A DNA stretch of 64,000 bases. It comes from Ecdyonurus torrentis (Eukaryota; Arthropoda; Insecta; Ephemeroptera; Heptageniidae). The stretch's first letter is position 1; each line of letters starts with the position of its first letter. Positions 7,701 to 61,869 of this stretch are shown piece after piece. The notes beneath the pieces were generated by a model. The model was not told the DNA's origin. It worked only from the letters and a program-made list of their open reading frames with translations, and searched no databases. The position numbers and the translations under genes were made by a program. The stretch lies in contig OX439137.1 in NCBI GenBank assembly GCA_949318235.1, positions 3,502,456-3,566,455 on the forward strand. Direction: 5' to 3'.

Positions 7701-10546
7701 AATCTACTGGCTGCAGAAGTCTGTACCGTTTATATTGCTGGGTATTTTGTTTGTACAACTATTGTTCATAGATCTGCCTCTTCTGCTTGGAGTTAAACAA
7801 GTATGTATACAATGTGTGAGAATTTCCAAGACAACTTTGCATTGGATCATATGATCATATGATCACCATGGTATGATTTTGACAGTGACTGGTGACATGG
7901 TGTGATTTTGTCCAGCAAATAATAATAATAAATAACACATTATCCCCCCCCCCCCCTCCTCCTCCAAAGAAAAGACACTTGGACATTTTTTTTTAAAGAA
8001 ATTACTACCTTTTGTTAGCTAAATCTTTGTAGATAAATCGTCATTGTAAATTAATTGCAAAGAAAATAATAATTGGCCTAATAATAAAAGACTCATCAAG
8101 TAAGTACTGTAACAAGAAATATTATTTAAATTTCATTGCAATTAATTTTTATTAATATTAGGCTATTATTACTATTTTTTCCACTCTATCTTTCTCTTCA
8201 GTATTTTCATATTTCATATTATAGCATTTTTTTTTTTTTTTTTTAATTATTATACACCATGATTTTATGGTATTTGTCTTCCAGCGTTTGCAGGAATAAA
8301 TTTTGCTCCAGAAGTATTTAATAGCACTAAAGTATGCATGCATTTTTCTACATTTAAATTAAAAAGAAGAAGGAGAAAAGGAAAATATTTTTTATACAAT
8401 CTGTAAAAAAAAAAATATAGGTAGCCTATATAAAAAAAAAAGGTTGTTAAAACTCCCAGTTGTCATTGGAGGTCATTGCTAATTAAAAGATTTTATAGAA
8501 AAACACATAGATTAGGAAAAATTGGGGAATGGGAGAAGTATGAGCATTTACACGGATGCTGTGGTAGAAAAAATATTCTAACCCCAGACAAAAAGAAATA
8601 TAGAAAGCTTTTTTTTTTTTTTTTTGGTTGAATTTTTTATTACAGACCATTTTTCCTAGTATTATCCAGTAATCATTGCAATGTTTTTTTTCTTATTATT
8701 TTTTTTAAATTACAGTATTTAATTATAAACTAATCTGTATTTCAGACTTACTATCAACTCAAAGGATTTCGTCACCCTCTCAGTTACGTCTCCCCCTCTT
8801 TGAGACGTTACCTTGGAAACATACATCACCCAATCCTGGCTTTGCTGTTTGTGCTGTGGCTTAGACCTTACATGAGGTAACATTATACTATAATAAATGT
8901 CAAAGAAATAGATAGGAGAAACCAGCAAGGGCCTTACCATAGTGAAGAAAGTCCCATAGCTTGGTGAAAATCTTGCTAGCATAGCAAGATTTTCACTAAA
9001 CTATGGAACTCACTATGGTAAGGCCCTTGCTAGTTTCTCCTATCTATTTCTTTGACATTTATCATACCTAACCACGATAGTTTATTGTCCTTAATATATA
9101 GCATTATACTCTGATAATTTTAATCAAAATAAAACATAGCAAGGGCCTTACCATAGTGAAGATAGTCCCATAGTTCAGTGAAAATCTTGCTAGCACAGAT
9201 ATATATAACTAGCACATCGATCTTTTCACATCAAGATGAAGCTACTGCACTTTACAAATTGGCAATGAATAAACGATCTACACTTTACAAAGTCGCGGCT
9301 ACCTGGAGCTTCTGCTATATAAAACAGGTAGGTGAAGCTCCAGGTATCCGCAAATTTGTAAAGTGTAGATCGGTCATTCTTCGGAATTTTGTAAAGTGTA
9401 GTAGCTTCATCTTGACGCGAGAAGATCGACATATTGTTTAGCTTTTGGCACTAAACTCTAACAAGTAAGAAAAATACGTAAAGTTTGTTTGCCTTTGTCA
9501 TTCCTTATACAGACTTCGAGAGAAACTACGAATAAGTCTGTGAGAACTGTACTGCTATAGAAACATAACACACTCCATTTCTCTTGGAGTTTTAGTTCTG
9601 AAAGCTATCAAATTCTTATTACTATGGTAAAACCCTATAGGGTAGTTTCATTCATGTTAAAGTCGACGTCATAAGTGAGTTCTAAATAACATTGACCGGT
9701 ATAGGAAAATGGCACATTTTGCCAGTACCTCAAGTATACAAGAAATATAATAATGACCAAAAAATAGCTAATTTTCCAAAGAAAATAGACAAAAACTACG
9801 TTTGTCTATGCTGAGCAATGCTATTCATTGCTCAAAAAGAGCATCAAAAAGCACTCAGAATGATGTCATGCCTACACGCCATATAAGAGCCTATAATTTT
9901 CTTTAAAATATATCATATCTAACTGTCAATTTAAGGAAAAAACCATCGCGGTTAGGATCAATATTAAAGAAAAGGATAGAATAACCAGCAAGGGCCTTAC
10001 CACAGTAGAAGTTCTATGGAGAGGTCGAAGTCTCGCATGGCACAGAGTTTTGTTATAAAAAAGTTCATTTTATAACTGAGAGCTTTTGTCATATATTAAT
10101 GACATTATCAATAAAGAAGAAAATTACTTGAGCACATCACTAAGCAGTGTCTTGTCTTGTACTTGTGCTCAAGTAATTTTCTTCTTTGATTGATAATGTC
10201 ATTAATATATGACGAAAGCTCTCAGTTATAAAATGAACTTTTTTATAACAAAACACTGTGCCATGCGAGACTTCGACCTCTCCATAGAACTTCTACTGTG
10301 GTAAGGCCCTTGCTGGTTATTCTATCCTTTTCTTTCATATCTAACTGTGATGGTTTATTTATCTCAACTATAATTTCTGATGTTTTTCTGTGTATGCAAA
10401 CTATAATATGTGTTTATTTCAGTGTTGATCGTTTCATCTTGGCTTGTGGCTTTACTTCTTTTGCTACACAATCCCATGTTGATGACAGAGATGCAACCTA
10501 CGCCAAGATCCAAGCAAGAATACGGATGTTTGATTGGGTATACTAA
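4750..10546 (+). CDS. NRM: Nurim homologue, five coding exons
   Basis: Nurim is a multi-pass inner nuclear membrane protein related to isoprenylcysteine methyltransferases; its biochemical role is unsettled. Exons: 4750-4873, 5671-5834, 7615-7800, 8746-8876, 10423-10546, all bounded by GT/AG. Phases join cleanly (1,0,0,2) and give 729 nt, 242 residues (human 262). Recognisable segments: LTDFGLILMFMVQHKLM and LYRSIYILGTSLALQ in exon 2, TYWSPVHYTVWD and LLLGVKQ in exon 3, RRYLGNIHHPILALLFVLW in exon 4, DRFILACGF in exon 5. They follow vertebrate nurim in order and spacing, with hydrophobic membrane segments throughout. The family's RHP is HHP here. I chose ATG 4750 because the first membrane segment follows at once, as in nurim. 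An in-frame ATG at 4645 would add 35 residues. Introns 2 and 4 are filled with repeats. Confidence 0.93.
5323..5561. repeat. Dispersed repeat E, copy 2 (nurim intron 1)
   Basis: Matches 2437-2668 over its length and lies between nurim exons 1 and 2. Confidence 0.65.
6040..6345. mobile_element. 300 bp palindromic element in nurim intron 2
   Basis: Arms run from ACCTTGAACAAAAAAGTTG to its near-complement CAACTTTTTTGTTCAAGGT. Both contain CATTGATTTCTAATTTAT and a TGACGTCA-like core, around a loop of about 25 bp. Confidence 0.75.
6423..6692. repeat. (CTCCCT)n hexanucleotide array
   Basis: About 45 nearly perfect copies of a pyrimidine hexamer. The minus strand would encode an (RE)n peptide, which I treat as spurious. 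Homopurine/homopyrimidine mirror character favours triplex (H-DNA) structure. Confidence 0.95.
6780..7310. mobile_element. Family D fold-back element split by a hAT-like insertion
   Basis: Outer arms: GAGACCAACAAGCGCCTTACC on the left and GGTAAGGTGCTTGTTGGTC on the right, with GGTTAAAACCATTT beyond the left arm. The element is interrupted at 7048-7205. It lies in nurim intron 2. Confidence 0.75.
7048..7205. mobile_element. hAT-like MITE with 8 bp target duplication
   Basis: Begins CAGGGATAGATCC and ends GGATCCGCCCCTG, flanked on both sides by TATTTGTG. An 8 bp duplication with CAGGG ends is the hAT signature. Inserted into a family D element. Confidence 0.85.
8484..8610 (+). repeat. Family F repeat, partial
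   Basis: AGATTAGGAAAAATTGGGGA and AATATTCTAACCCCAG are shared with 17354-17515, 49085-49335 and 52963-53185. It lies in nurim intron 3. Confidence 0.6.
8893..9064. mobile_element. Family D perfect hairpin (nurim intron 4)
   Basis: About 85 bp arms with almost no loop: AATGTCAAAGAAATAGATAG on the left, with its complement at the right end. The arms meet at AATCTTGCTAGCATAGCAAGATT. Confidence 0.85.
9138..9480. mobile_element. Composite element: D-type left half, inner palindrome, CATATTG right half
   Basis: Left half AGCAAGGGCCTTACCATAG to CTTGCTAGCACAGATATA. The inner palindrome (about 9224-9432) has arms GATGAAGCTACTGCACTTTA and the complement. The right half is CATATTGTTTAGCTTTTGGC. The same outer halves surround other cores at 15853, 49432 and 52207. 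Confidence 0.65.
9641..9894 (+). mobile_element. Family B element, internally deleted (nurim intron 4)
   Basis: Starts TATAGGGTAGTTTCATTCATG and ends near CGCCATATA. Compared with 22684-22995 it lacks the segment between TTTTGCCAGT and ACCTCAAGTAT. Confidence 0.7.
9966..10335. mobile_element. 370 bp near-perfect palindrome (nurim intron 4)
   Basis: Arms of about 165 bp: AAAGAAAAGGATAGAATAAC with its complement at the right. Both contain GAAGTTCTATGGAGAGGTCG and AATTACTTGAGCAC, around a loop of about 30 bp near 10150. Confidence 0.88.
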
Positions 10547-27875: not shown

Positions 27876-27881
27876 TTTATT
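27876..27881 (-). terminator. AATAAA overlapping the DIPK1 stop codon
   Basis: Read on the minus strand, GGAATAAAATTT runs through the stop codon (27879-27877), so an AATAAA hexamer overlaps TAA. It may be the polyadenylation signal, but the sequence is so AT-rich that chance is likely and other sites lie downstream. Confidence 0.25.
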
Positions 27882-29380
27882 CCATCATGAGATCCAATTC
27901 ATTAACCATTTCCTCAATAGTAGCTACCAATCTATCCCTAACATCATCAGGTGTTCCATATTTAATACCTTCTTCTCCATGAGGATAAGCACAAAGTCTA
28001 AGTAACGTTGTTAATGCTGGAGAAGCATGAGGTGACGATAATAATCCAGGTATTAATAACGCACCACCCCAACGTTCACCCAGAAACACCTTCTCACAAA
28101 TAGATTGTAAATTATTATTAGTACTTGGTGGTACACATTTGCCATCTTCACAAGCTGCAAAACAATCTAAATATTTACAATCTTGATGTTTCATACATTT
28201 CTGACCATCCCCTGATAACGTATTAGCAACGTCATTAGTAACAACAGAATCACCGTCTAAAATAACAATTTTAGTACCGTCAAATGATTTACCAAAATGA
28301 TTAATACGTACATCACATATTCTTAATTGTAACATAAAAGTAGATTCTAATCTTTCAAGTAATTCTAATATCAATACAGAATTTCTTAATCTATCTGACC
28401 ATATTTCATTTTCATGTTCCCATAATGCACCACCAGTAATAGGTTCAGCGTATTCAACAGCAAAATAATCACCACATGAACCAATTAATGTTGGAAATAT
28501 TTCTTGTTCTGCAAATAATCTTATAGCTAAATATTCATGATCTTGTAATAAGGACCATAGATTACTCATTTCTGCATGTCTCATTTCTGAACGAGTAGGT
28601 ACAGGACCTAATTGTGTTAATTTTTGTATTTGATCGTTAGTTACAGATATATTCATTTCTGTTATTACTAAATTAGTTATCATATCAAAAAAGTCATTTT
28701 CTGATGGATAATGTTGATAACCTTTATTATCTATCCAATAAACTGATGTTCTTGTATCAGGGAATGATGTTCTCTTTGATGATTTAAATACTAGAGGCAT
28801 GCCATCTAGTACTGCAGAAAATACAACTTCTTTACCTGCATGTAGTGGTTGGCAGTTCATGTTATGTATACGTCCATGCTCACACAGTGGGGAGCATAGG
28901 TTGCCTACTGCTTCACCATCATGGTATTGATGACACTGCAAAATATTAATACTTATATTAAAATGTTCTTTGTCATATTTAAAGGACTAGTAAACAATGG
29001 CCTTTTTAAAAGTGATCATTGTGTTAGATAACAAAAATGTAAATCAATATATAGGGTGGTTTCATTCATGTTAAAGTCAACGTCATAAGTAAGTACTAAT
29101 AACATTGGCTGGTATAGGAAAATGGCACATTTTGCCAGTTTAAAAATACTTCGCAATTTTGTTGGGAGCATTGATGCTGTTAACAGGTTGAATTAGTACT
29201 GTACTTCAAGTATGCAAGAAAAATAATAATGACCAAAAAATAGCTAATTTTCCAAAGAAAATAGCCAAAAACTACGTTTGTCCTATGCTGAGCAATGTTA
29301 TTCATTGCTAAAGAAGAGCATTGAAAAGCATTCAGAATGACGTCATGTGTACACACCCTATATAACAAAATTAAAATAGG

Positions 29381-33304: not shown

Positions 33305-36300
33305 CGCTTTTTTTTTTTTTTTTTTTTCCATAGGCCTATATTTAATATTACATTAGGCTTATGAGACTATCATAAAAATTGGCAACATTGCATTAAATCA
33401 GTAAAGCAAGAAACATATTTTATTTTATAGGGTACAATACTTAAATGAAGGTATGAAGGTCATACAGTGTTGAAATGCATGTCTGTTGTAGAACAGATTT
33501 CTCATATTAGAATTGATACGTCATTATGTATTGTTTTTTGCTTGAAGGTTACTTGAAAAGTAATGCAAGATGGGGAGCAAGTCCCAAGATATTTGCTGCT
33601 GTGGTAGCAGGATACTTTCTTGGTAAATTCTCTTACCAATCTCGCTGTGCTGATAAAATGATGCAGTTACCAAACAGTCCTCTAGGAGAAATGTTACGTA
33701 GACGAAGGCAACAAGCAGGAGGGGCATCCTTCTCAGAGAAGTGAGTCAATATTGTGAACTATTGTTTCATGTTAGATTTCAACTAAAAGAATCAATTTAA
33801 GGAAGAAAACCATCGCGATTAGGATCAATAATGAAGAAAAGGATAGAATTACCAGCAAGGGCCTTACTTACCACAGTAGAAGTTCTATGGAGAGGTCGAG
33901 GTCGTGCATGGCACAGTGTTTTGTTTAAAAAAAAAAGTTCATTTTATAACTGATTATAAAATAAAATAATACCTACAAGTTATAAAAAAAAAATTTATGA
34001 CAAAATACTGTGCCACGCGTTATAAAAAGTTATAAAATAAACTTTTTCATAACAAAATACTGTGCCACATGAGACCACGACCTCTCCATAGAACTTCTAC
34101 TGTTCTACTGCTGCTAATTCTATCCTTTTCTTTATTAATTTTCTTATATTTATATTATAAATATATGAAAAAACCATCGCGGTTAATGCTACTAATCAAT
34201 AGGATAGAAATAGTACGAGAGAAACTAGAGCACTTTGTATTGAAAAGTAATGCAGAGCGAAATTCTCTAATTTTGATAGAATAATGGGAATGGGATTCAA
34301 ATTAATTCACTAGTATTGTTACTAGGACGTTTTTTAATGAAAGAAATTAAAAGGATGGGTTATTCTGTGCGAAAACTAGCCATACATACCAAATATCGTC
34401 ACGTAAACTATCTCTCAATCTGGCTGGACGCGTTTCGACCTATCCGTTCCGAATATTGTATATTAATAAAATTAATATACAATAAAACATCGCGGGTCTC
34501 AGGTTCTCTTCAGCAGCCCATGGTAGTACAATATGCTCACCTATACCGAGCATCACCGCTTGGTACGTGTGGTTCATATCGCACGCCATGTGAAAATGAG
34601 ATTTAGTCAGAGCGCTTGCTGAGCAGTGTCCGCCGCACCCCCCTCCCCACATTCCCCAATGCAGAGAAGGAAGCAGCCGCGACCACTACCCCGCAAGACG
34701 ACACCTGTTTCGTGATACATACTTGTATGTTTGGCGAGTCTTTGCACAGAGAGGAGAGGAAAAAGTAAAAGATGATAGAGGTTAGAGATAGAAATAAAAT
34801 GCAACCAAATGTTGCATTTTTTGTATGCACTTACGTAGCTTTCGCTCTGGCATATAACTCGAATAGAATGTGAAAAATATTATTTACAAAGGAAAAAAAT
34901 CGACATTGCGATAAATATAAATATATGAAAAAACCATCGCGGTTAATGCTACTAATCAATAGGATAGAAATAGTACGAGAGAAACTAGAGCACTTTGTAT
35001 TGAAAAGTAATGCAGAGCGAAATTCTCTAATTTTGATAGAATAATGGGAATGGGATTCAAATTAATTCACTAGTATTGTTACTAGGACGTTTTTTAATGA
35101 AAGAAATTAAAAGGATGGGTTATTCTGTGCGAAAACTAGCCATACATACCAAATATCGTCACGTAAACTATCTCTCAATCTGGCTGGACGCGTTTCGACC
35201 TATCCGTTCCGAATATTGTATATTAATAAAATTAATATACAATAAAACATCGCGGGTCTCAGGTTCTCTTCAGCAGCCCATGGTAGTACAATATGCTCAC
35301 CTATACCGAGCATCACCGCTTGGTACGTGTGGTTCATATCGCACGCCATGTGAAAATGAGATTTAGTCAGAGCGCTTGCTGAGCAGTGTCCGCCGCACCC
35401 CCCTCCCCACATTCCCCAATGCAGAGAAGGAAGCAGCCGCGACCACTACCCCGCAAGACGACACCTGTTTCGTGATACATACTTGTATGTTTGGCGAGTC
35501 TTTGCACAGAGAGGAGAGGAAAAAGTAAAAGATGATAGAGGTTAGAGATAGAAATAAAATGCAACCAAATGTTGCATTTTTTGTATGCACTTACGTAGCT
35601 TTCGCTCTGGCATATAACTCGAATAGAATGTGAAAAATATTATTTACAAAGGAAAAAAATCGACATTGCGATAAATATAAATATATGAAAAAACCATCGC
35701 GGTTAATGCTACTAATCAATAGGATAGAAATAGTACGAGAGAAACTAGAGCACTTTGTATTGAAAAGTAATGCAGAGCGAAATTCTCTAATTTTGATAGA
35801 ATAATGGGAATGGGATTCAAATTAATTCACTAGTATTGTTACTAGGACGTTTTTTAATGAAAGAAATTAAAAGGATGGGTTATTCTGTGCGAAAACTAGC
35901 CATACATACCAAATATCGTCACGTAAACTATCTCTCAATCTGGCTGGACGCGTTTCGACCTATCCGTTCCGAATATTGTATATTAATAAAATTAATATAC
36001 AATAAAACATCGCGGGTCTCAGGTTCTCTTCAGCAGCCCATGGTAGTACAATATGCTCACCTATACCGAGCATCACCGCTTGGTACGTGTGGTTCATATC
36101 GCACGCCATGTGAAAATGAGATTTAGTCAGAGCGCTTGCTGAGCAGTGTCCGCCGCACCCCCCTCCCCACATTCCCCAATGCAGAGAAGGAAGCAGCCGC
36201 GACCACTACCCCGCAAGACGACACCTGTTTCGTGATACATACTTGTATGTTTGGCGAGTCTTTGCACAGAGAGGAGAGGAAAAAGTAAAAGATGATAGAG

Positions 36301-39300
36301 GTTAGAGATAGAAATAAAATGCAACCAAATGTTGCATTTTTTGTATGCACTTACGTAGCTTTCGCTCTGGCATATAACTCGAATAGAATGTGAAAAATAT
36401 TATTTACAAAGGAAAAAAATCGACATTGCGATAAATATAAATATATGAAAAAACCATCGCGGTTAATGCTACTAATCAATAGGATAGAAATAGTACGAGA
36501 GAAACTAGAGCACTTTGTATTGAAAAGTAATGCAGAGCGAAATTCTCTAATTTTGATAGAATAATGGGAATGGGATTCAAATTAATTCACTAGTATTGTT
36601 ACTAGGACGTTTTTTAATGAAAGAAATTAAAAGGATGGGTTATTCTGTGCGAAAACTAGCCATACATACCAAATATCGTCACGTAAACTATCTCTCAATC
36701 TGGCTGGACGCGTTTCGACCTATCCGTTCCGAATATTGTATATTAATAAAATTAATATACAATAAAACATCGCGGGTCTCAGGTTCTCTTCAGCAGCCCA
36801 TGGTAGTACAATATGCTCACCTATACCGAGCATCACCGCTTGGTACGTGTGGTTCATATCGCACGCCATGTGAAAATGAGATTTAGTCAGAGCGCTTGCT
36901 GAGCAGTGTCCGCCGCACCCCCCTCCCCACATTCCCCAATGCAGAGAAGGAAGCAGCCGCGACCACTACCCCGCAAGACGACACCTGTTTCGTGATACAT
37001 ACTTGTATGTTTGGCGAGTCTTTGCACAGAGAGGAGAGGAAAAAGTAAAAGATGATAGAGGTTAGAGATAGAAATAAAATGCAACCAAATGTTGCATTTT
37101 TTGTATGCACTTACGTAGCTTTCGCTCTGGCATATAACTCGAATAGAATGTGAAAAATATTATTTACAAAGGAAAAAAATCGACATTGCGATAAATATAA
37201 ATATATGAAAAAACCATCGCGGTTAATGCTACTAATCAATAGGATAGAAATAGTACGAGAGAAACTAGAGCACTTTGTATTGAAAAGTAATGCAGAGCGA
37301 AATTCTCTAATTTTGATAGAATAATGGGAATGGGATTCAAATTAATTCACTAGTATTGTTACTAGGACGTTTTTTAATGAAAGAAATTAAAAGGATGGGT
37401 TATTCTGTGCGAAAACTAGCCATACATACCAAATATCGTCACGTAAACTATCTCTCAATCTGGCTGGACGCGTTTCGACCTATCCGTTCCGAATATTGTA
37501 TATTAATAAAATTAATATACAATAAAACATCGCGGGTCTCAGGTTCTCTTCAGCAGCCCATGGTAGTACAATATGCTCACCTATACCGAGCATCACCGCT
37601 TGGTACGTGTGGTTCATATCGCACGCCATGTGAAAATGAGATTTAGTCAGAGCGCTTGCTGAGCAGTGTCCGCCGCACCCCCCTCCCCACATTCCCCAAT
37701 GCAGAGAAGGAAGCAGCCGCGACCACTACCCCGCAAGACGACACCTGTTTCGTGATACATACTTGTATGTTTGGCGAGTCTTTGCACAGAGAGGAGAGGA
37801 AAAAGTAAAAGATGATAGAGGTTAGAGATAGAAATAAAATGCAACCAAATGTTGCATTTTTTGTATGCACTTACGTAGCTTTCGCTCTGGCATATAACTC
37901 GAATAGAATGTGAAAAATATTATTTACAAAGGAAAAAAATCGACATTGCGATAAATATAAATATATGAAAAAACCATCGCGGTTAATGCTACTAATCAAT
38001 AGGATAGAAATAGTACGAGAGAAACTAGAGCACTTTGTATTGAAAAGTAATGCAGAGCGAAATTCTCTAATTTTGATAGAATAATGGGAATGGGATTCAA
38101 ATTAATTCACTAGTATTGTTACTAGGACGTTTTTTAATGAAAGAAATTAAAAGGATGGGTTATTCTGTGCGAAAACTAGCCATACATACCAAATATCGTC
38201 ACGTAAACTATCTCTCAATCTGGCTGGACGCGTTTCGACCTATCCGTTCCGAATATTGTATATTAATAAAATTAATATACAATAAAACATCGCGGGTCTC
38301 AGGTTCTCTTCAGCAGCCCATGGTAGTACAATATGCTCACCTATACCGAGCATCACCGCTTGGTACGTGTGGTTCATATCGCACGCCATGTGAAAATGAG
38401 ATTTAGTCAGAGCGCTTGCTGAGCAGTGTCCGCCGCACCCCCCTCCCCACATTCCCCAATGCAGAGAAGGAAGCAGCCGCGACCACTACCCCGCAAGACG
38501 ACACCTGTTTCGTGATACATACTTGTATGTTTGGCGAGTCTTTGCACAGAGAGGAGAGGAAAAAGTAAAAGATGATAGAGGTTAGAGATAGAAATAAAAT
38601 GCAACCAAATGTTGCATTTTTTGTATGCACTTACGTAGCTTTCGCTCTGGCATATAACTCGAATAGAATGTGAAAAATATTATTTACAAAGGAAAAAAAT
38701 CGACATTGCGATAAATATAAATATATGAAAAAACCATCGCGGTTAATGCTACTAATCAATAGGATAGAAATAGTACGAGAGAAACTAGAGCACTTTGTAT
38801 TGAAAAGTAATGCAGAGCGAAATTCTCTAATTTTGATAGAATAATGGGAATGGGATTCAAATTAATTCACTAGTATTGTTACTAGGACGTTTTTTAATGA
38901 AAGAAATTAAAAGGATGGGTTATTCTGTGCGAAAACTAGCCATACATACCAAATATCGTCACGTAAACTATCTCTCAATCTGGCTGGACGCGTTTCGACC
39001 TATCCGTTCCGAATATTGTATATTAATAAAATTAATATACAATAAAACATCGCGGGTCTCAGGTTCTCTTCAGCAGCCCATGGTAGTACAATATGCTCAC
39101 CTATACCGAGCATCACCGCTTGGTACGTGTGGTTCATATCGCACGCCATGTGAAAATGAGATTTAGTCAGAGCGCTTGCTGAGCAGTGTCCGCCGCACCC
39201 CCCTCCCCACATTCCCCAATGCAGAGAAGGAAGCAGCCGCGACCACTACCCCGCAAGACGACACCTGTTTCGTGATACATACTTGTATGTTTGGCGAGTC

Positions 39301-42300
39301 TTTGCACAGAGAGGAGAGGAAAAAGTAAAAGATGATAGAGGTTAGAGATAGAAATAAAATGCAACCAAATGTTGCATTTTTTGTATGCACTTACGTAGCT
39401 TTCGCTCTGGCATATAACTCGAATAGAATGTGAAAAATATTATTTACAAAGGAAAAAAATCGACATTGCGATAAATATAAATATATGAAAAAACCATCGC
39501 GGTTAATGCTACTAATCAATAGGATAGAAATAGTACGAGAGAAACTAGAGCACTTTGTATTGAAAAGTAATGCAGAGCGAAATTCTCTAATTTTGATAGA
39601 ATAATGGGAATGGGATTCAAATTAATTCACTAGTATTGTTACTAGGACGTTTTTTAATGAAAGAAATTAAAAGGATGGGTTATTCTGTGCGAAAACTAGC
39701 CATACATACCAAATATCGTCACGTAAACTATCTCTCAATCTGGCTGGACGCGTTTCGACCTATCCGTTCCGAATATTGTATATTAATAAAATTAATATAC
39801 AATAAAACATCGCGGGTCTCAGGTTCTCTTCAGCAGCCCATGGTAGTACAATATGCTCACCTATACCGAGCATCACCGCTTGGTACGTGTGGTTCATATC
39901 GCACGCCATGTGAAAATGAGATTTAGTCAGAGCGCTTGCTGAGCAGTGTCCGCCGCACCCCCCTCCCCACATTCCCCAATGCAGAGAAGGAAGCAGCCGC
40001 GACCACTACCCCGCAAGACGACACCTGTTTCGTGATACATACTTGTATGTTTGGCGAGTCTTTGCACAGAGAGGAGAGGAAAAAGTAAAAGATGATAGAG
40101 GTTAGAGATAGAAATAAAATGCAACCAAATGTTGCATTTTTTGTATGCACTTACGTAGCTTTCGCTCTGGCATATAACTCGAATAGAATGTGAAAAATAT
40201 TATTTACAAAGGAAAAAAATCGACATTGCGATAAATATAAATATATGAAAAAACCATCGCGGTTAATGCTACTAATCAATAGGATAGAAATAGTACGAGA
40301 GAAACTAGAGCACTTTGTATTGAAAAGTAATGCAGAGCGAAATTCTCTAATTTTGATAGAATAATGGGAATGGGATTCAAATTAATTCACTAGTATTGTT
40401 ACTAGGACGTTTTTTAATGAAAGAAATTAAAAGGATGGGTTATTCTGTGCGAAAACTAGCCATACATACCAAATATCGTCACGTAAACTATCTCTCAATC
40501 TGGCTGGACGCGTTTCGACCTATCCGTTCCGAATATTGTATATTAATAAAATTAATATACAATAAAACATCGCGGGTCTCAGGTTCTCTTCAGCAGCCCA
40601 TGGTAGTACAATATGCTCACCTATACCGAGCATCACCGCTTGGTACGTGTGGTTCATATCGCACGCCATGTGAAAATGAGATTTAGTCAGAGCGCTTGCT
40701 GAGCAGTGTCCGCCGCACCCCCCTCCCCACATTCCCCAATGCAGAGAAGGAAGCAGCCGCGACCACTACCCCGCAAGACGACACCTGTTTCGTGATACAT
40801 ACTTGTATGTTTGGCGAGTCTTTGCACAGAGAGGAGAGGAAAAAGTAAAAGATGATAGAGGTTAGAGATAGAAATAAAATGCAACCAAATGTTGCATTTT
40901 TTGTATGCACTTACGTAGCTTTCGCTCTGGCATATAACTCGAATAGAATGTGAAAAATATTATTTACAAAGGAAAAAAATCGACATTGCGATAAATATAA
41001 ATATATGAAAAAACCATCGCGGTTAATGCTACTAATCAATAGGATAGAAATAGTACGAGAGAAACTAGAGCACTTTGTATTGAAAAGTAATGCAGAGCGA
41101 AATTCTCTAATTTTGATAGAATAATGGGAATGGGATTCAAATTAATTCACTAGTATTGTTACTAGGACGTTTTTTAATGAAAGAAATTAAAAGGATGGGT
41201 TATTCTGTGCGAAAACTAGCCATACATACCAAATATCGTCACGTAAACTATCTCTCAATCTGGCTGGACGCGTTTCGACCTATCCGTTCCGAATATTGTA
41301 TATTAATAAAATTAATATACAATAAAACATCGCGGGTCTCAGGTTCTCTTCAGCAGCCCATGGTAGTACAATATGCTCACCTATACCGAGCATCACCGCT
41401 TGGTACGTGTGGTTCATATCGCACGCCATGTGAAAATGAGATTTAGTCAGAGCGCTTGCTGAGCAGTGTCCGCCGCACCCCCCTCCCCACATTCCCCAAT
41501 GCAGAGAAGGAAGCAGCCGCGACCACTACCCCGCAAGACGACACCTGTTTCGTGATACATACTTGTATGTTTGGCGAGTCTTTGCACAGAGAGGAGAGGA
41601 AAAAGTAAAAGATGATAGAGGTTAGAGATAGAAATAAAATGCAACCAAATGTTGCATTTTTTGTATGCACTTACGTAGCTTTCGCTCTGGCATATAACTC
41701 GAATAGAATGTGAAAAATATTATTTACAAAGGAAAAAAATCGACATTGCGATAAATATAAATATATGAAAAAACCATCGCGGTTAATGCTACTAATCAAT
41801 AGGATAGAAATAGTACGAGAGAAACTAGAGCACTTTGTATTGAAAAGTAATGCAGAGCGAAATTCTCTAATTTTGATAGAATAATGGGAATGGGATTCAA
41901 ATTAATTCACTAGTATTGTTACTAGGACGTTTTTTAATGAAAGAAATTAAAAGGATGGGTTATTCTGTGCGAAAACTAGCCATACATACCAAATATCGTC
42001 ACGTAAACTATCTCTCAATCTGGCTGGACGCGTTTCGACCTATCCGTTCCGAATATTGTATATTAATAAAATTAATATACAATAAAACATCGCGGGTCTC
42101 AGGTTCTCTTCAGCAGCCCATGGTAGTACAATATGCTCACCTATACCGCCAAACATACAAGTATGTATCACGAAACAGGTGTCGTCTTGCGGGGTAGTGG
42201 TCGCGGCTGCTTCCTTCTCTGCATTGGGGAATGTGGGGAGGGGGGTGCGGCGGACACTGCTCAGCAAGCGCTCTGACTAAATCTCATTTTCACATGGCGT

Positions 42301-45300
42301 GCGATATGAACCACACGTACCAAGCGGTGATGCTCGGTATAGGTGAGCATATTGTACTACCATGGGCTGCTGAAGAGAACCTGAGACCCGCGATGTTTTA
42401 TTGTATATTAATTTTATTAATATACAATATTCGGAACGGATAGGTCGAAACGCGTCCAGCCAGATTGAGAGATAGTTTACGTGACGATATTTGGTATGTA
42501 TGGCTAGTTTTCGCACAGAATAACCCATCCTTTTAATTTCTTTCATTAAAAAACGTCCTAGTAACAATACTAGTGAATTAATTTGAATCCCATTCCCATT
42601 ATTCTATCAAAATTAGAGAATTTCGCTCTGCATTACTTTTCAATACAAAGTGCTCTAGTTTCTCTCGTACTATTTCTATCCTATTGATTAGTAGCATTAA
42701 CCGCGATGGTTTTTTCATATATTTATATTTATCGCAATGTCGATTTTTTTCCTTTGTAAATAATATTTTTCACATTCTATTCGAGTTATATGCCAGAGCG
42801 AAAGCTACGTAAGTGCATACAAAAAATGCAACATTTGGTTGCATTTTATTTCTATCTCTAACCTCTATCATCTTTTACTTTTTCCTCTCCTCTCTGTGCA
42901 AAGACTCGCCAAACATACAAGTATGTATCACGAAACAGGTGTCGTCTTGCGGGGTAGTGGTCGCGGCTGCTTCCTTCTCTGCATTGGGGAATGTGGGGAG
43001 GGGGGTGCGGCGGACACTGCTCAGCAAGCGCTCTGACTAAATCTCATTTTCACATGGCGTGCGATATGAACCACACGTACCAAGCGGTGATGCTCGGTAT
43101 AGGTGAGCATATTGTACTACCATGGGCTGCTGAAGAGAACCTGAGACCCGCGATGTTTTATTGTATATTAATTTTATTAATATACAATATTCGGAACGGA
43201 TAGGTCGAAACGCGTCCAGCCAGATTGAGAGATAGTTTACGTGACGATATTTGGTATGTATGGCTAGTTTTCGCACAGAATAACCCATCCTTTTAATTTC
43301 TTTCATTAAAAAACGTCCTAGTAACAATACTAGTGAATTAATTTGAATCCCATTCCCATTATTCTATCAAAATTAGAGAATTTCGCTCTGCATTACTTTT
43401 CAATACAAAGTGCTCTAGTTTCTCTCGTACTATTTCTATCCTATTGATTAGTAGCATTAACCGCGATGGTTTTTTCATATATTTATATTTATCGCAATGT
43501 CGATTTTTTTCCTTTGTAAATAATATTTTTCACATTCTATTCGAGTTATATGCCAGAGCGAAAGCTACGTAAGTGCATACAAAAAATGCAACATTTGGTT
43601 GCATTTTATTTCTATCTCTAACCTCTATCATCTTTTACTTTTTCCTCTCCTCTCTGTGCAAAGACTCGCCAAACATACAAGTATGTATCACGAAACAGGT
43701 GTCGTCTTGCGGGGTAGTGGTCGCGGCTGCTTCCTTCTCTGCATTGGGGAATGTGGGGAGGGGGGTGCGGCGGACACTGCTCAGCAAGCGCTCTGACTAA
43801 ATCTCATTTTCACATGGCGTGCGATATGAACCACACGTACCAAGCGGTGATGCTCGGTATAGGTGAGCATATTGTACTACCATGGGCTGCTGAAGAGAAC
43901 CTGAGACCCGCGATGTTTTATTGTATATTAATTTTATTAATATACAATATTCGGAACGGATAGGTCGAAACGCGTCCAGCCAGATTGAGAGATAGTTTAC
44001 GTGACGATATTTGGTATGTATGGCTAGTTTTCGCACAGAATAACCCATCCTTTTAATTTCTTTCATTAAAAAACGTCCTAGTAACAATACTAGTGAATTA
44101 ATTTGAATCCCATTCCCATTATTCTATCAAAATTAGAGAATTTCGCTCTGCATTACTTTTCAATACAAAGTGCTCTAGTTTCTCTCGTACTATTTCTATC
44201 CTATTGATTAGTAGCATTAACCGCGATGGTTTTTTCATATATTTATATTTATCGCAATGTCGATTTTTTTCCTTTGTAAATAATATTTTTCACATTCTAT
44301 TCGAGTTATATGCCAGAGCGAAAGCTACGTAAGTGCATACAAAAAATGCAACATTTGGTTGCATTTTATTTCTATCTCTAACCTCTATCATCTTTTACTT
44401 TTTCCTCTCCTCTCTGTGCAAAGACTCGCCAAACATACAAGTATGTATCACGAAACAGGTGTCGTCTTGCGGGGTAGTGGTCGCGGCTGCTTCCTTCTCT
44501 GCATTGGGGAATGTGGGGAGGGGGGTGCGGCGGACACTGCTCAGCAAGCGCTCTGACTAAATCTCATTTTCACATGGCGTGCGATATGAACCACACGTAC
44601 CAAGCGGTGATGCTCGGTATAGGTGAGCATATTGTACTACCATGGGCTGCTGAAGAGAACCTGAGACCCGCGATGTTTTATTGTATATTAATTTTATTAA
44701 TATACAATATTCGGAACGGATAGGTCGAAACGCGTCCAGCCAGATTGAGAGATAGTTTACGTGACGATATTTGGTATGTATGGCTAGTTTTCGCACAGAA
44801 TAACCCATCCTTTTAATTTCTTTCATTAAAAAACGTCCTAGTAACAATACTAGTGAATTAATTTGAATCCCATTCCCATTATTCTATCAAAATTAGAGAA
44901 TTTCGCTCTGCATTACTTTTCAATACAAAGTGCTCTAGTTTCTCTCGTACTATTTCTATCCTATTGATTAGTAGCATTAACCGCGATGGTTTTTTCATAT
45001 ATTTATATTTATCGCAATGTCGATTTTTTTCCTTTGTAAATAATATTTTTCACATTCTATTCGAGTTATATGCCAGAGCGAAAGCTACGTAAGTGCATAC
45101 AAAAAATGCAACATTTGGTTGCATTTTATTTCTATCTCTAACCTCTATCATCTTTTACTTTTTCCTCTCCTCTCTGTGCAAAGACTCGCCAAACATACAA
45201 GTATGTATCACGAAACAGGTGTCGTCTTGCGGGGTAGTGGTCGCGGCTGCTTCCTTCTCTGCATTGGGGAATGTGGGGAGGGGGGTGCGGCGGACACTGC

Positions 45301-48300
45301 TCAGCAAGCGCTCTGACTAAATCTCATTTTCACATGGCGTGCGATATGAACCACACGTACCAAGCGGTGATGCTCGGTATAGGTGAGCATATTGTACTAC
45401 CATGGGCTGCTGAAGAGAACCTGAGACCCGCGATGTTTTATTGTATATTAATTTTATTAATATACAATATTCGGAACGGATAGGTCGAAACGCGTCCAGC
45501 CAGATTGAGAGATAGTTTACGTGACGATATTTGGTATGTATGGCTAGTTTTCGCACAGAATAACCCATCCTTTTAATTTCTTTCATTAAAAAACGTCCTA
45601 GTAACAATACTAGTGAATTAATTTGAATCCCATTCCCATTATTCTATCAAAATTAGAGAATTTCGCTCTGCATTACTTTTCAATACAAAGTGCTCTAGTT
45701 TCTCTCGTACTATTTCTATCCTATTGATTAGTAGCATTAACCGCGATGGTTTTTTCATATATTTATATTTATCGCAATGTCGATTTTTTTCCTTTGTAAA
45801 TAATATTTTTCACATTCTATTCGAGTTATATGCCAGAGCGAAAGCTACGTAAGTGCATACAAAAAATGCAACATTTGGTTGCATTTTATTTCTATCTCTA
45901 ACCTCTATCATCTTTTACTTTTTCCTCTCCTCTCTGTGCAAAGACTCGCCAAACATACAAGTATGTATCACGAAACAGGTGTCGTCTTGCGGGGTAGTGG
46001 TCGCGGCTGCTTCCTTCTCTGCATTGGGGAATGTGGGGAGGGGGGTGCGGCGGACACTGCTCAGCAAGCGCTCTGACTAAATCTCATTTTCACATGGCGT
46101 GCGATATGAACCACACGTACCAAGCGGTGATGCTCGGTATAGGTGAGCATATTGTACTACCATGGGCTGCTGAAGAGAACCTGAGACCCGCGATGTTTTA
46201 TTGTATATTAATTTTATTAATATACAATATTCGGAACGGATAGGTCGAAACGCGTCCAGCCAGATTGAGAGATAGTTTACGTGACGATATTTGGTATGTA
46301 TGGCTAGTTTTCGCACAGAATAACCCATCCTTTTAATTTCTTTCATTAAAAAACGTCCTAGTAACAATACTAGTGAATTAATTTGAATCCCATTCCCATT
46401 ATTCTATCAAAATTAGAGAATTTCGCTCTGCATTACTTTTCAATACAAAGTGCTCTAGTTTCTCTCGTACTATTTCTATCCTATTGATTAGTAGCATTAA
46501 CCGCGATGGTTTTTTCATATATTTATATTTATCGCAATGTCGATTTTTTTCCTTTGTAAATAATATTTTTCACATTCTATTCGAGTTATATGCCAGAGCG
46601 AAAGCTACGTAAGTGCATACAAAAAATGCAACATTTGGTTGCATTTTATTTCTATCTCTAACCTCTATCATCTTTTACTTTTTCCTCTCCTCTCTGTGCA
46701 AAGACTCGCCAAACATACAAGTATGTATCACGAAACAGGTGTCGTCTTGCGGGGTAGTGGTCGCGGCTGCTTCCTTCTCTGCATTGGGGAATGTGGGGAG
46801 GGGGGTGCGGCGGACACTGCTCAGCAAGCGCTCTGACTAAATCTCATTTTCACATGGCGTGCGATATGAACCACACGTACCAAGCGGTGATGCTCGGTAT
46901 AGGTGAGCATATTGTACTACCATGGGCTGCTGAAGAGAACCTGAGACCCGCGATGTTTTATTGTATATTAATTTTATTAATATACAATATTCGGAACGGA
47001 TAGGTCGAAACGCGTCCAGCCAGATTGAGAGATAGTTTACGTGACGATATTTGGTATGTATGGCTAGTTTTCGCACAGAATAACCCATCCTTTTAATTTC
47101 TTTCATTAAAAAACGTCCTAGTAACAATACTAGTGAATTAATTTGAATCCCATTCCCATTATTCTATCAAAATTAGAGAATTTCGCTCTGCATTACTTTT
47201 CAATACAAAGTGCTCTAGTTTCTCTCGTACTATTTCTATCCTATTGATTATATTTATATTATTAATTCTAATACAATTACGTATTTTGATTGACAGTTTC
47301 AGCTTAGAGCCCAGCATGCTGCCCTCTCTACCTTCGTCAACTACTGAATCATTTCAAGTATACTCTGACCACGGACCTCGCAGCATGGACTTAGATACCA
47401 CTAGACCCATGCAGGATACAACTATTGATACCACTCAACATAGTAATGATGGTACGTATGTTATTTCAAGTCAATCTCCTCTCTATATTTACAGCCCAAA
47501 GTAGTTTCATAAGTTTTGACACCACTGCACTAAATACAAGCCAAAACCAACCCCATAAGCTCAACCTCTATAAAATTTCAAGCATAGTTAAAAATGAGCT
47601 TGTTAATGTGCGCTCTGATGGCCAAAAGTTAAAGAACGGGTCTGCAGTGATAACATATTTATTAGATAACATAAAGTGGTTGCGGGTTGCCTATACAAAT
47701 CATTCTTAAACTTTTGGGCAGAGCTGTACATAACCCCTTGCTAGGCTGACCATATTATTGAGATGCAAAATCGGGACACTTTGACCGTAGAAGAGAGGCA
47801 ACTTGGAACGTGGGGGCGCAGGCCCCGCCGGAGGTGAAAAATTTTCTTAAAAGGGGGCGTGGTCCCCGAATTTTAAGTGTATTTTGATCGATTTTTAAAT
47901 AGCCATTATTGAAAAAAAAAATCTAAAAATTAATTTTTCTATAGAAAACAATTAAAGAGCTACGTTCACTTTTTTTTCTTTTGTCACCATAAATTTAAAA
48001 AAAAATCTTTTTTTTTTTTGCTTCAAAAACGATTTTTTTTTTTTTTTTTTTTTTTTTTTACGCACTGTCATTAAAATTTGCTCCAAAAATTGTAATTTCA
48101 ATAAATATAATATAATAGCATTAATTTTTTTATTGTATTACCAACTATATTTACCAAGCAAATGGTTTAGCAAAGAAAAAATAAAAATAAAATAAACGGA
48201 AATGTTCTTTAATTAAGAGAAGAAAAACGATTACATAATGGCAACTTCTGCTATTAATTAAATAATTATTAATAAATCACGACATTTTTATATTAAAATA

Positions 48301-50177: not shown

Positions 50178-51415
50178 CAGGGGCGGCCCTAGCATGTTTT
50201 TGAATTTCAAATTAAATTTGTAGCAAAAGTTATCAGCCGATTTTTATGATATTTTAGGATATGATGGTCAGAAAGTCAAATTTATCGCTAATATATTTTT
50301 TTTGTAGAAATTTGGAAATAAAAGGCCCTTAAAGGACCCTTAAACTGAAAAAATGGGTCCATTTTTTACTTTGCACTCCAAAAGTGCAACTCGGAAATAA
50401 AATTTCTCAACAAAACTTTGTTTGGGTATTGGTGAGATATGGTGGACGCTAATTACAGACACGGCGTTGCTTTTTTCTTATTTTGGTCCCATTGGGACCC
50501 AATCAAAATTGACCAAAATTAAAATTTAGCAAAAAAATTAAAATTGGAATAGAAATTTGAAATTTTCCAGTTTAATATTTTTTGAGTCTGCAATTTCAAA
50601 AATCATATTTTCAAAATCCTAGAAGGGCCCAAAAGGGCCCTTTGGGGCCCTAACTTTGTTGCAAATAAAGATATTGCAAAAAAATTTGCACCATTGAATT
50701 TCTAATGCTCAAGAACATAGGAATCGACTATTTACTTGCCTTCGTAGCTTTAAACCGAATTAATGGTTTTGGGCCCCTTTGCTAGTGCATGCCTTAGTGC
50801 ATGCCTTAGTAACTGGGCCCTAAAAACCATTAATTCGGTTTAAAGCTACGAAGGCAAGTAAATAGTCGATTCCTATGTTCTTGAGCATTAGAAATTCAAT
50901 GGTGCAAATTTTTTTGCAATATCTTTATTTGCAACAAAGTTAGGGCCCCAAAGGGCCCTTTTGGGCCCTTCTAGGATTTTGAAAATATGATTTTTGAAAT
51001 TGCAGACTCAAAAAATATTAAACTGGAAAATTTCAAATTTCTATTCCAATTTTAATTTTTTTGCTAAATTTTAATTTTGGTCAATTTTGATTGGGTCCCA
51101 ATGGGACCAAAATAAGAAAAAAGCAACGCCGTGTCTGTAATTAGCGTCCACCATATCTCACCAATACCCAAACAAAGTTTTGTTGAGAAATTTTATTTCC
51201 GAGTTGCACTTTTGGAGTGCAAAGTAAAAAATGGACCCATTTTTTCAGTTTAAGGGTCCTTTAAGGGCCTTTTATTTCCAAATTTCTACAAAAAAAATAT
51301 ATTAGCGATAAATTTGACTTTCTGACCATCATATCCTAAAATATCATAAAAATCGGCTGATAACTTTTGCTACAATTTTAATTTGAAATTTAAAAACATG
51401 CTAGGGCCGCCCCTG
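50178..51415. mobile_element. 1.24 kb hAT-like palindrome with 8 bp target duplication
   Basis: CAGGGGCGGCCCTAGCATG and its complement form the ends. CTAAAGTC flanks both sides (50170-50177, 51416-51423). The arms, about 600 bp each, look almost perfect. The loop near 50784-50810 repeats GTGCATGCCTTA. Confidence 0.92.
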
Positions 51416-58674: not shown

Positions 58675-61600
58675 TCAAGGTAAGGGCCAAGGTAAGTTAG
58701 AAAAATCTACAGGACCTCCTAACCCAGCATCTGCTTCTAATAAAGACATAATAACTGCCATAGCTGCTTCATCATTTCCATCATTAGACGCTGTACTATG
58801 TTGTTGTGATGGAGAAGGTCCATTAGGAGGTGAAGTAGAAGGACGTGGTACTACAGTAGCTGAAGGTGCGTTCATCATATCTCGTAATAATAATTCTTCT
58901 TCGTCTTTCTCACCACTACCTTCACCACATAGTGAAACGTTGTGACTACTGTGACGTGTTAGAGCGGAGTTACTTCTACTTGGTGCTTGGTAACTACTGC
59001 AGTTACTTAAACTTTCACCACCGTTACCTATAAGCTGTAACATATCAAGGGAAACTTATTATAAATGGAGGTTATCGGTTTAAAAAATTATTTAAAAAAA
59101 ATTCTATAGCTTAAAACACGTAAAAAATATGCGTAGTATTTCTCATTTAAATTTCTCTGAAATTGTTAGAGTAGTTTTCTCAAATATAGCAGAAAATGTG
59201 TTTTTCCCCATAAGCGTAATGTTAAATTAGGGGACACTATTATGGCGCTAAACCGATAAGCTCCATTAGATTCTGTTATAGGGTTGTATTCATATAAAAG
59301 TCAACACCATATACGTGAGCACTAAAATAGGCCACTATGGGAAAATCAAACATTTTGCCAGTTTAAAAATAATTATCAAATGTTTTGAGAGTATTGATGT
59401 AGTAATCAGTTTGAATTAGTTTTTCAAGTATGTGGGGAAAAAAAACTAAAAAATGAAGTAATTTTCCAAAGAAATTATTAAAAAATCTCGTTTATTCTAC
59501 GCCCAGCAATGTTATTCATTGATCCAGTATGGCATCGAAACGCATTCATTATGACATCATGCACTGTACTGTATATTCGATGCCTCCGAGTCAAAAGCGA
59601 GCATCTACAATTTCCAGATTTCTGACAAAACGACTATCTACACTTTCCGCCGCCGAGCATCTGCAATGTTAAGTTTATGGCCGCTAGTCGAGTTACAGCG
59701 CTGCTCAGAAAGTGTAGATAGTCGTTTGGTCGGAAATCTGGTGTAGATGCTCGCTTTTGACGCGGATGCTACTATTTATTTTTCTTTGATTCTATTTTAC
59801 TGATTATTTTATATTTTTTAAAAATATATTCCATTTTAAAGGTACATTTTTTTGTATCTACTTACGTTCATGGAGCTCTGACTAAGTTCTAGTCCAGGTG
59901 AAGGAGAACTACTGACAGAAGAAGAGTCCCCAGCACCTAAACATGCCACACCTCCACCTCCTACTTTCTTGCGAGTGTCCAAGGCTTCTTCCGCGATCTG
60001 ACGTCCAATTTTACTGGCCTCTACGTGGGAACTAATTAACCTCGTCATCTCTCTACCCGCTGGACTGCCATTTGCTGTAACATCAATCAATCAATCAAGC
60101 GATCAATCAATCAATCAATCAATCAAATAATCAATCAACAATCAATCAATAAAACGATCTTTACACGTAATAAGTATGCTAGTCAATTCAGCAAAATTTA
60201 TGCATCAAATCATAGACTATATTGTATAGTAATTATACTACACATAGCATATAATGATTAAGATATTCAGCATAATTACTTATGTCAATCATTACAAAGC
60301 AGTAACATCTTGTGCTCTACTACAATTCTTTGCAGCATAAATTATATAACTTTTTTTTTCTATGCATGTAACAAAAAACACTTTATAATATTTTTCAATT
60401 ATATAAATAATTATATGTTGAAAAAAAAATGCATTGACAAAATTACTATGAAATGCAAATTCTTATAGTCAATTTTGAAAGCTATATACTTTTTGTCCAC
60501 ACGTAAAAAATAAATTACGTAATTTATGCTACATTATGAACAATTGCTATATTATGGAGAACAAATGTTGATATTTTATATGTAATAACTAGAGTACTCT
60601 AGAAGGGGTCATTTTCAGAACAAAAAAAAAAAAAAACTTTTAATTAACATTGACTGACAACAATGAAATTTTTGGGCATACCAGCCAATCAGATTTGAAT
60701 TTTCGATTTCAACAACCAATGAAAGGGCTTTAAATATTCTGCTGGATCGCGTATACTCCCCCCTTCTAGAGTACTCTAGTAATAACATTAGATGCTGAAC
60801 ATCTCAACTATTATAATGATGTAGTATAAGCACTATAAAATATTACATAAAGTATGTTGTCATTTACAAATGTTGCTGCATTGAGCTAGCATAATTATTA
60901 CGTATTTATTTTTCAAGTGCATAATGGTCTGTTCACAATGACGCGTAAATTCACATAAAGGCCTTATCAACTTACTTTTTTATAATTTAGAATACTAAAT
61001 AATTACCATACCTTAATATCCATGAATTAGACACCAACACGTTGATTTTGTATTTATTTTCCTTTTTGCGGTTATATCACGTATCTGACGTCACAATGTA
61101 CCACCGCCAATCACAGTCACCGCTCTGGTCACGTGATAAATTTAAGCCCCTCCCTCAAGTTCTTTACCCCTATCACGGTCCCATCGGTACATTGTGACGT
61201 CAGATACGTGATATAAACGCAAAAAGGAAAATAAACGAAAATAAATACAAAATCAATGCGTTGGTGTCATTCATGGATAATAAGGTATGGTAATTATCAG
61301 TCTAGTATTCTAAATGATAAAAAAGTAAGTTGACAAGGGATTTAACTCCTACGTGAAGATACGACAATCAATGTTATTTGGATTGTTACGCGAAAGTTAC
61401 GTAAATTTACGCGTCATTGATGTAAACAGAAGTTAAAGAATACACGTAAATAAAGTCAAACTCACTATGAGAGAAGAAGGAGTCAAAGTTGGTGGGTGGT
61501 GTGGGGGTGTTAGTTTGTTCTCCCTGCATACTTGAAGATCTGACCAACCAATTTTTAGCAACCAAATATTCCACATCTCTTGTCCAAGGATTGCAGAAAG

Positions 61601-61869
61601 CTCGCCATTCACTTGCAACTCGGACGTAAGTGCCGTCTTTACCACGAAACCTATACGTCTGAAATCATATAAAAAGCAGAAAGAAATTAGAGAGGATAAT
61701 ATTAAAAAAACAAAATATTTTTTTATAATTAATCTAAACACACACAAAATTGGAGAGTGCGTACATAGTGCACTCACAGGGTATGAGAGTAATTTAACTA
61801 TTATATAAAAAGACAAACTGGTAGAGGCTAGTATTAATGAAATAATTTCTAATGCAACAATTTTTTACG

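Follow-up and report, generated by a model that had tools for sequence, protein, structure and literature searches.

An inverted 760-bp tandem array in an OCIA-domain gene intron of Ecdyonurus torrentis: probably a non-autonomous Penelope-like insertion

Introduction

Penelope-like elements (PLEs) are among the closest described systems to the DNA considered here, an array of 760-bp units located within an intron of a gene that encodes an OCIA domain, in a 64,000-nt stretch of the Ecdyonurus torrentis genome (GCA_949318235.1, contig OX439137.1, positions 3,502,456 to 3,566,455; hereafter the window). The Pen families of Adineta vaga carry inverted pseudo-long terminal repeats (pLTRs), an optional 31-bp tail and 8-10-bp target duplications, and self-priming has been proposed for them (PMC3846280). 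A PLE protein has been reported in vitro to cut both target strands and to extend them from two adjacent internal sites on the RNA, with a tail of 30-40 bp lying between these sites; in the element from Anolis the ribozyme cut is located 26 nt, and the start of reverse transcription 111-118 nt, into the open reading frame (PMC11167929). Further steps of PLE insertion are, according to the same study, still to be validated (PMC11167929), and arrays like the present one bear on the insertion mechanism.

An array that nearly fills an intron

The array consists of a direct arm followed by a reverse-complement arm with the same exact 760-bp period, and no differences were found among the copies of the unit in both arms. 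The features concerned are as follows.

33548..33740, plus strand: OCIA-domain exon directly upstream of the intron (Pfam PF07051, E=7e-16; splice signal by eye)
34144..34158, no strand: left target duplication, 15 bp, TTATATTTATATTAT (repeat search with controls)
34156..34192, plus strand: A-end tail, unit phases 724-760, at one end only, its first 3 bases overlapping the duplication
34156..42148, plus strand: direct (A) arm, 10.52 identical 760-bp copies (periodicity)
34422..34518, minus strand: hammerhead motif, the first of 11 minus-strand copies, one per unit; predicted cut 34426/34427
42147..42148, no strand: joint of the arms, where unit phase 356 abuts phase 544 on the inverted side with an overlap of 2 bp, CG
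42147..47250, minus strand: inverted (B) arm, 6.72 identical copies with seven plus-strand hammerhead motifs, outer end tailless
47248..47262, no strand: right target duplication, 15 bp
47297..47451, plus strand: presumed following exon, 3' limit by eye

The array occupies 13,095 of the 13,556 bases of the intron (33741-47296), which begins with GT at 33741 and ends with AG at 47295-47296, and the flanking exons, as judged by eye, join in an open frame. A first-pass annotation of this DNA had counted about 10.5 direct and about 6.7 inverted copies of a 760-bp unit with a single reversal of orientation inside an OCIAD1-like gene; the array, its reversal and its position within the intron of a gene with an OCIA domain are borne out, the outer limits differing by 0-2 bp. 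With 13.1 kb the array is the longest among the loci examined, the second longest measuring 5.8 kb. The longest open frame within the unit comprises 108 amino acids and neither a reverse transcriptase nor a GIY-YIG endonuclease is encoded, so that the element can be filed as a non-autonomous PLE member only.

One layout across the genome

When one unit is used as the query against the whole assembly (117 contigs, 503 Mb), the array proves not to be a one-off, as many dispersed relatives exist. The search gave 184 matches, drawn from the 39 places that were scored out of 805 candidates; about 150 of these matches were listed, best first, among which the window's own copies are absent. Grouping of the listed matches gave 39 loci, all of which were retrieved, and which together with the window make up a best-scoring sample of 40 loci that consequently leans to near-identical copies. 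In 34 of the 40 the arms are arranged head to head, as the inverted terminal copies of PLEs are; the remaining six possess one arm, and the opposite order does not occur. Where the first-pass annotation had seen a gene split around an unusual giant palindrome, the intron holds one member of a mobile family that is scattered over the genome and usually reverses once, and the OCIA-domain gene is not specially built around the palindrome.

An exact 22-base pattern of the tail has 334 hits genome-wide and none when read backwards, which leaves hundreds of exact tail matches to be read for their insertion record. More distant relatives (L068-L071, at C8:31204400, C4:10905100, C8:13423600 and C4:14966400) are 82% identical to the 760-bp unit. 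Around C8:31204559 the tail matches follow each other in 770-bp steps, three plus copies and then three minus copies.

An assembly error in the inversion or in the number of copies is scarcely credible. The array of the window is, as assembled, the longest seen and its copies are fully identical, yet its flanks are unique and different, its target duplication is intact, and 33 other loci show the same layout with variants of their own.

Unequal ends between target duplications

In 33 of the 34 two-arm loci one end (A) bears a tail of about 37 nt, within the 30-40 bp of the one-end tail of PLEs, and the other end (B) is tailless; in these loci the match begins at unit phase 713-726 at the A end and at phase 1-70 at the B end. 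The exception, L043, combines an A end with a start at phase 569, and no two-arm locus has two A ends or two B ends. The starts can be read more exactly from the target duplications, by eye, in 32 loci, L043 and L055 (the 14-bp repeat of which lies outside the search range) being left aside. Read in this way, A starts are mostly located at phase 724-728, and B starts at phase 756-760 in 16 loci and otherwise at phase 4 (three loci), 8 (two), 10 (one), 11 (one), 12 (two), 21 (four), and 27, 56 and 78 (one each).

A direct repeat of at least 13 bp flanks 33 of the 34 two-arm loci as compared to 3 of 544 mismatched pairs of flanks taken from different loci. The duplications measure 14 bp in 14 loci, the mode, 15 bp in eight, 16 bp in six, 13 bp in two, 17 bp in one and 20 bp in two, and lie at AT-rich sites as those of PLEs do; L027 and L038 are flanked by (TA)n, such that the length of their duplications carries little meaning.

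Inverted arms between target duplications could also derive from a fold-back DNA transposon or a recombined satellite, whereby a transposase would have mobilised the inverted arrays or recombination would have created them. Fold-back elements with tandem units do exist. We regard this origin as highly improbable, as the ends are unequal in 33 of the 34 loci, the joint varies from locus to locus and no core is shared, the unit has no open frame beyond that of 108 amino acids noted above and carries a hammerhead motif, and PLE genes of the same genome are laid out alike.

One template for both arms

Variants were compared over 32 loci, eight older or diverged loci being left out. Spread over 13 loci, 21 non-majority variants occur in every copy of both arms of their locus; of the other variants, 102 are confined to one copy and 12 are present in several but not all copies. 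Four of these 12 are found in every copy read, though in just one of the arms; several involve single-base runs or a copy that sits at a joint. Most informative among the 12 is L038: the substitution 742C>T is located in the second unit from the outside in both arms. Each insertion is thus the record of one template for both arms.

At the joints of the 34 two-arm loci, the arms overlap by 1-31 bp in 19 cases and leave 0-50 bp between them in 15. In 18 of the 34 the two arms end no more than 45 nt from the same unit phase, where a uniform distribution would lead to 4.1, and none of 20,000 permutations reaches 18. Ten of these 18 symmetric loci have a difference in arm length (B minus A) of -4 to -81, six one of +684 to +726 and the remaining two one of -809. 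Two cDNAs that run out at a common RNA 5' end, having begun within one and the same unit or in adjacent units, would give such differences. Over 33 loci the tailless arm is the longer in 12, the excess being above 100 nt in 10 of these, and the tailed arm is the longer in 21.

These observations bear on two further explanations. The first is self-priming as already put forward for the PLEs of Adineta (PMC3846280), where a target-primed cDNA folds back at its 3' end and then serves as the template of the second arm. Near-symmetric joints are what such a process would leave, as are overlapping arms, the overlaps being longest at short self-complementary stretches. With the tailed arm made first, though, the tailless copy could not exceed it, as it does in the 12 loci named, and with the tailless arm made first its copy would not acquire an additional tail, whereas in the majority of loci it is the tailed arm that is longer. 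Nor would self-priming lead one to expect a second start at a constant place some 37 nt inward of the first, and we consider it unlikely.

The second explanation, a retrozyme-like circular RNA that undergoes rolling reverse transcription primed at the target, is likewise unlikely. It draws on the tandem hammerhead-motif units, which resemble the animal retrozymes (PMC7229834, PMC7761336), on variants common to all copies of a locus, which suit a monomer circle, and on the 10.5 and 6.7 units of the window, which call for a template of great length or without an end. Against it, more than half of the joints are symmetric, although a circle offers no common end at which cDNAs could stop, and a substitution restricted to the second unit of each arm, as in L038, is not predicted by a monomer circle. 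Joint symmetry and arm lengths together speak against simple self-priming as well as against a template of circular RNA only, and both were rejected as sole explanations.

A hammerhead motif in every unit

The first-pass annotation held that the unit resembles nothing known, which does not stand, as the unit carries a hammerhead-type motif next to the insertion marks described for PLEs. As in PLEs, the candidate motif is minimal and lies in the repeated part; by its sequence it is present in 18 copies in the window (11 minus, 7 plus), one per unit. The motif strand reads outward in both arms and comprises helix I (GGCUG/CAGCC), the core CUGAAGA, GAAA and, ahead of GUC, a minimal helix III. Stem II encloses about 70 nt, with a further hairpin, on account of which a first regular expression with a 60-nt limit did not find the motif, which was spotted by eye. 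Criteria of a motif finder fixed post hoc, once the motif had been seen, are satisfied in none of 4,000 dinucleotide shuffles. Relatives of about 80% identity, some with a 770-bp period, keep the motif with a CUGAUGA core and a longer helix III.

Over seven variants, 96.9% of the cells pair, as compared to 29-40% when the partners are slid, and seven cells and the covariation score lie above all but one of 500 shuffles. Pairs changed on both sides number three, two of them in the inner hairpin, which is an ordinary figure (278 of 500 shuffles).

Penelope-like genes laid out alike

PLE genes with the same layout are abundant in the genome. They were sought with an endonuclease peptide as query, and the best 150 of 917 candidates were scored; among these the best match has E=3.6e-12 and open frames extend to 873 amino acids. 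Neighbouring matches no more than 6 kb apart form 38 pairs, of which 37 run minus then plus and one plus-plus, such that the 3' ends of the PLEs face outward and the arms stand head to head like those of the 760-bp arrays. Of the shortest pairs, four were inspected: L074, L075 and L077 are palindromes over their whole length with 98-99% identity, and L076 is palindromic over 215 nt per side only. The endonuclease piece of L074 matches GIY-YIG with E=2.1e-4, just below the cut-off, that of L076 has no GIY-YIG match, and a piece of the 873-residue frame has an RVT_1 match (E=6.6e-6), also below the cut-off. On the 3' side of this frame (L072) a hammerhead-like motif is seen by eye over the start MRPTQVAKRREQ, and the apparent end is located about 105 nt into the frame.

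A genome-wide Pfam search for GIY-YIG gave two matches, neither of which was judged to be a PLE; L061 (G000 C10:48233988) has its GIY-YIG match within a 1496-amino-acid open frame and is not PLE-like.

How the insertion may have formed

Taken together, the array is probably one insertion of a non-autonomous PLE with a hammerhead-motif monomer of 760 bp, doubly primed on a multimeric linear RNA. An autonomous PLE would supply a protein that binds a linear RNA of several tandem units and whose endonuclease cuts AT-rich DNA with a stagger of about 14 bp. The two 3' ends of the target would then be extended on one and the same RNA, one cDNA beginning at site A (phase ~724-728), which would give rise to the tail, and the other at site B (mostly phase 756-760, else 4-78). 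Both cDNAs would proceed towards the RNA 5' end, which they would often reach, and would subsequently be joined. The expected outcome is a pair of head-to-head arms with a joint that varies among loci, a single tailed end and a duplication of 14 bp. The intron of the OCIA-domain gene holds an unusually long and apparently young insertion, probably of this PLE type.

Several observations weigh against this proposal. Six loci (L022, L036, L049, L052, L056 and L059) have one arm. The joints of 16 of the 34 two-arm loci, the window included, are asymmetric and follow no length rule; one or both cDNAs may have stopped prematurely there. Three symmetric joints with overlaps of 16-31 bp (L028, L044 and L046) are those that a fold-back would favour, and the joint of L046 falls on an internal palindrome of the unit, equally favourable to fold-back. 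With respect to the ribozyme, Rfam at gathering and at relaxed thresholds gave no ribozyme match, and in predicted free folds helix I forms but the expected stem II does not; with the core held open, the modelled folds contain helix I in four and stem II in two of the seven variants. No arm among the loci examined ends at the predicted ribozyme cut between unit phases 234 and 235, which is about 234-271 nt from the start sites as compared to about 85-92 nt in the Anolis element (from the numbers in PMC11167929); hammerhead mutants of the latter still insert in vitro (PMC11167929). The motif finder gave nothing on two PLE 3' sides. Finally, comparison of the 760-bp unit with seven PLE pieces from the 150 listed matches gave only AT-rich matches of 15-17 nt, and the kinship with PLEs accordingly rests on anatomy and context.

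A more general statement, that priming of both target strands on one multimeric linear RNA is routine for such elements, with two start sites and a tendency of both cDNAs to run off at the RNA 5' end before they are joined, and would supplant self-priming as the account of their structure, could equally prove right or wrong. If true, it would explain why inverted Penelope repeats have a tail on one side only.

Neighbouring elements of the window

A sister family is represented in the window by two short inverted elements, and other features are found at some distance from the array.

9927..10334, no strand: short sister-family element with two arms and the same tail core AAACCATCGCG (sequence; duplication by eye)
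33804..34143, no strand: older sister-family copy directly left of the array, limits approximate, tail core AAACCATCGCG
50178..51415: inverted repeat of 593 nt, arms 100% complementary with 52 nt between them, ends CAGGGGCGG
27877..28986, minus strand: exon of a FAM69-type kinase (PF12260, E=1.6e-39; PF14875)
61407..61664, minus strand: PAS-domain exon (PF14598, E=1.2e-5, barely over the cut-off)
6424..6692: perfect array of the hexamer TCTCCC, 44.8 copies

The element at 9927-10334 is flanked by a 14-bp target duplication, TCATATCTAACTGT, at 9913-9926 and 10335-10348 (by eye); none was seen around the copy at about 33804-34143. The tail pattern of the sister family occurs 768 times in the genome and never when read backwards; on C1, one such tail lies about 1 kb past a PLE match, a single coincidence. 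The inverted repeat at 50178-51415 has an 8-bp flanking repeat, CTAAAGTC, by eye, and we take this palindromic element to be hAT-like by its end motif.

Relation to described systems

Elements made of repeat units act as a natural recorder, in which unit phase and variants show where a cDNA started, where it stopped and whether a template was shared. The novelty lies in this record: where both cDNAs began and ended, and on which template, can be read off the unit, and the record favours double priming on one linear RNA. Such insertions are, moreover, a plain source of giant exact palindromes within introns.

In twin-primed (5'-inverted) LINE-1 insertions, a single RNA is likewise copied from both target strands and the place where the cDNAs meet varies, with 5' inversion being a minority outcome. 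In the family described here, on the other hand, inversion is the rule and there are two preferred start sites.

The animal (non-LTR, non-long terminal repeat) retrozymes share non-coding tandem units with a hammerhead-type motif but differ by reported units of ~150-450 bp, canonical type I hammerheads and circular RNAs (PMC7229834, PMC7761336), whereas the present unit has 760 bp, a minimal helix III and inverted arms. The word 'inverted' is absent from the main text of PMC7229834, and among open-licence PMC articles, by their titles and the openings of their abstracts, no paper on inverted multi-copy hammerhead arrays was found, a statement limited to that material.

From the PLEs themselves the family is set apart by a 760-bp unit without evident coding, by arms of up to 10.5 units and by a stem II that encloses a further hairpin, and its duplications of mostly 14-16 bp are longer than the 8-10 bp given for Adineta (PMC3846280). 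Common to the array family and the PLEs of Adineta vaga (Pen; PMC3846280) and Anolis (Poseidon PAc; PMC11167929) are the inverted terminal copies, the 30-40-bp tail at one end, the target duplications, the AT-rich targets and the hammerhead motif. The in vitro work on the Anolis element adds a likeness in process, namely the copying of both strands from two adjacent start sites on the RNA (PMC11167929).

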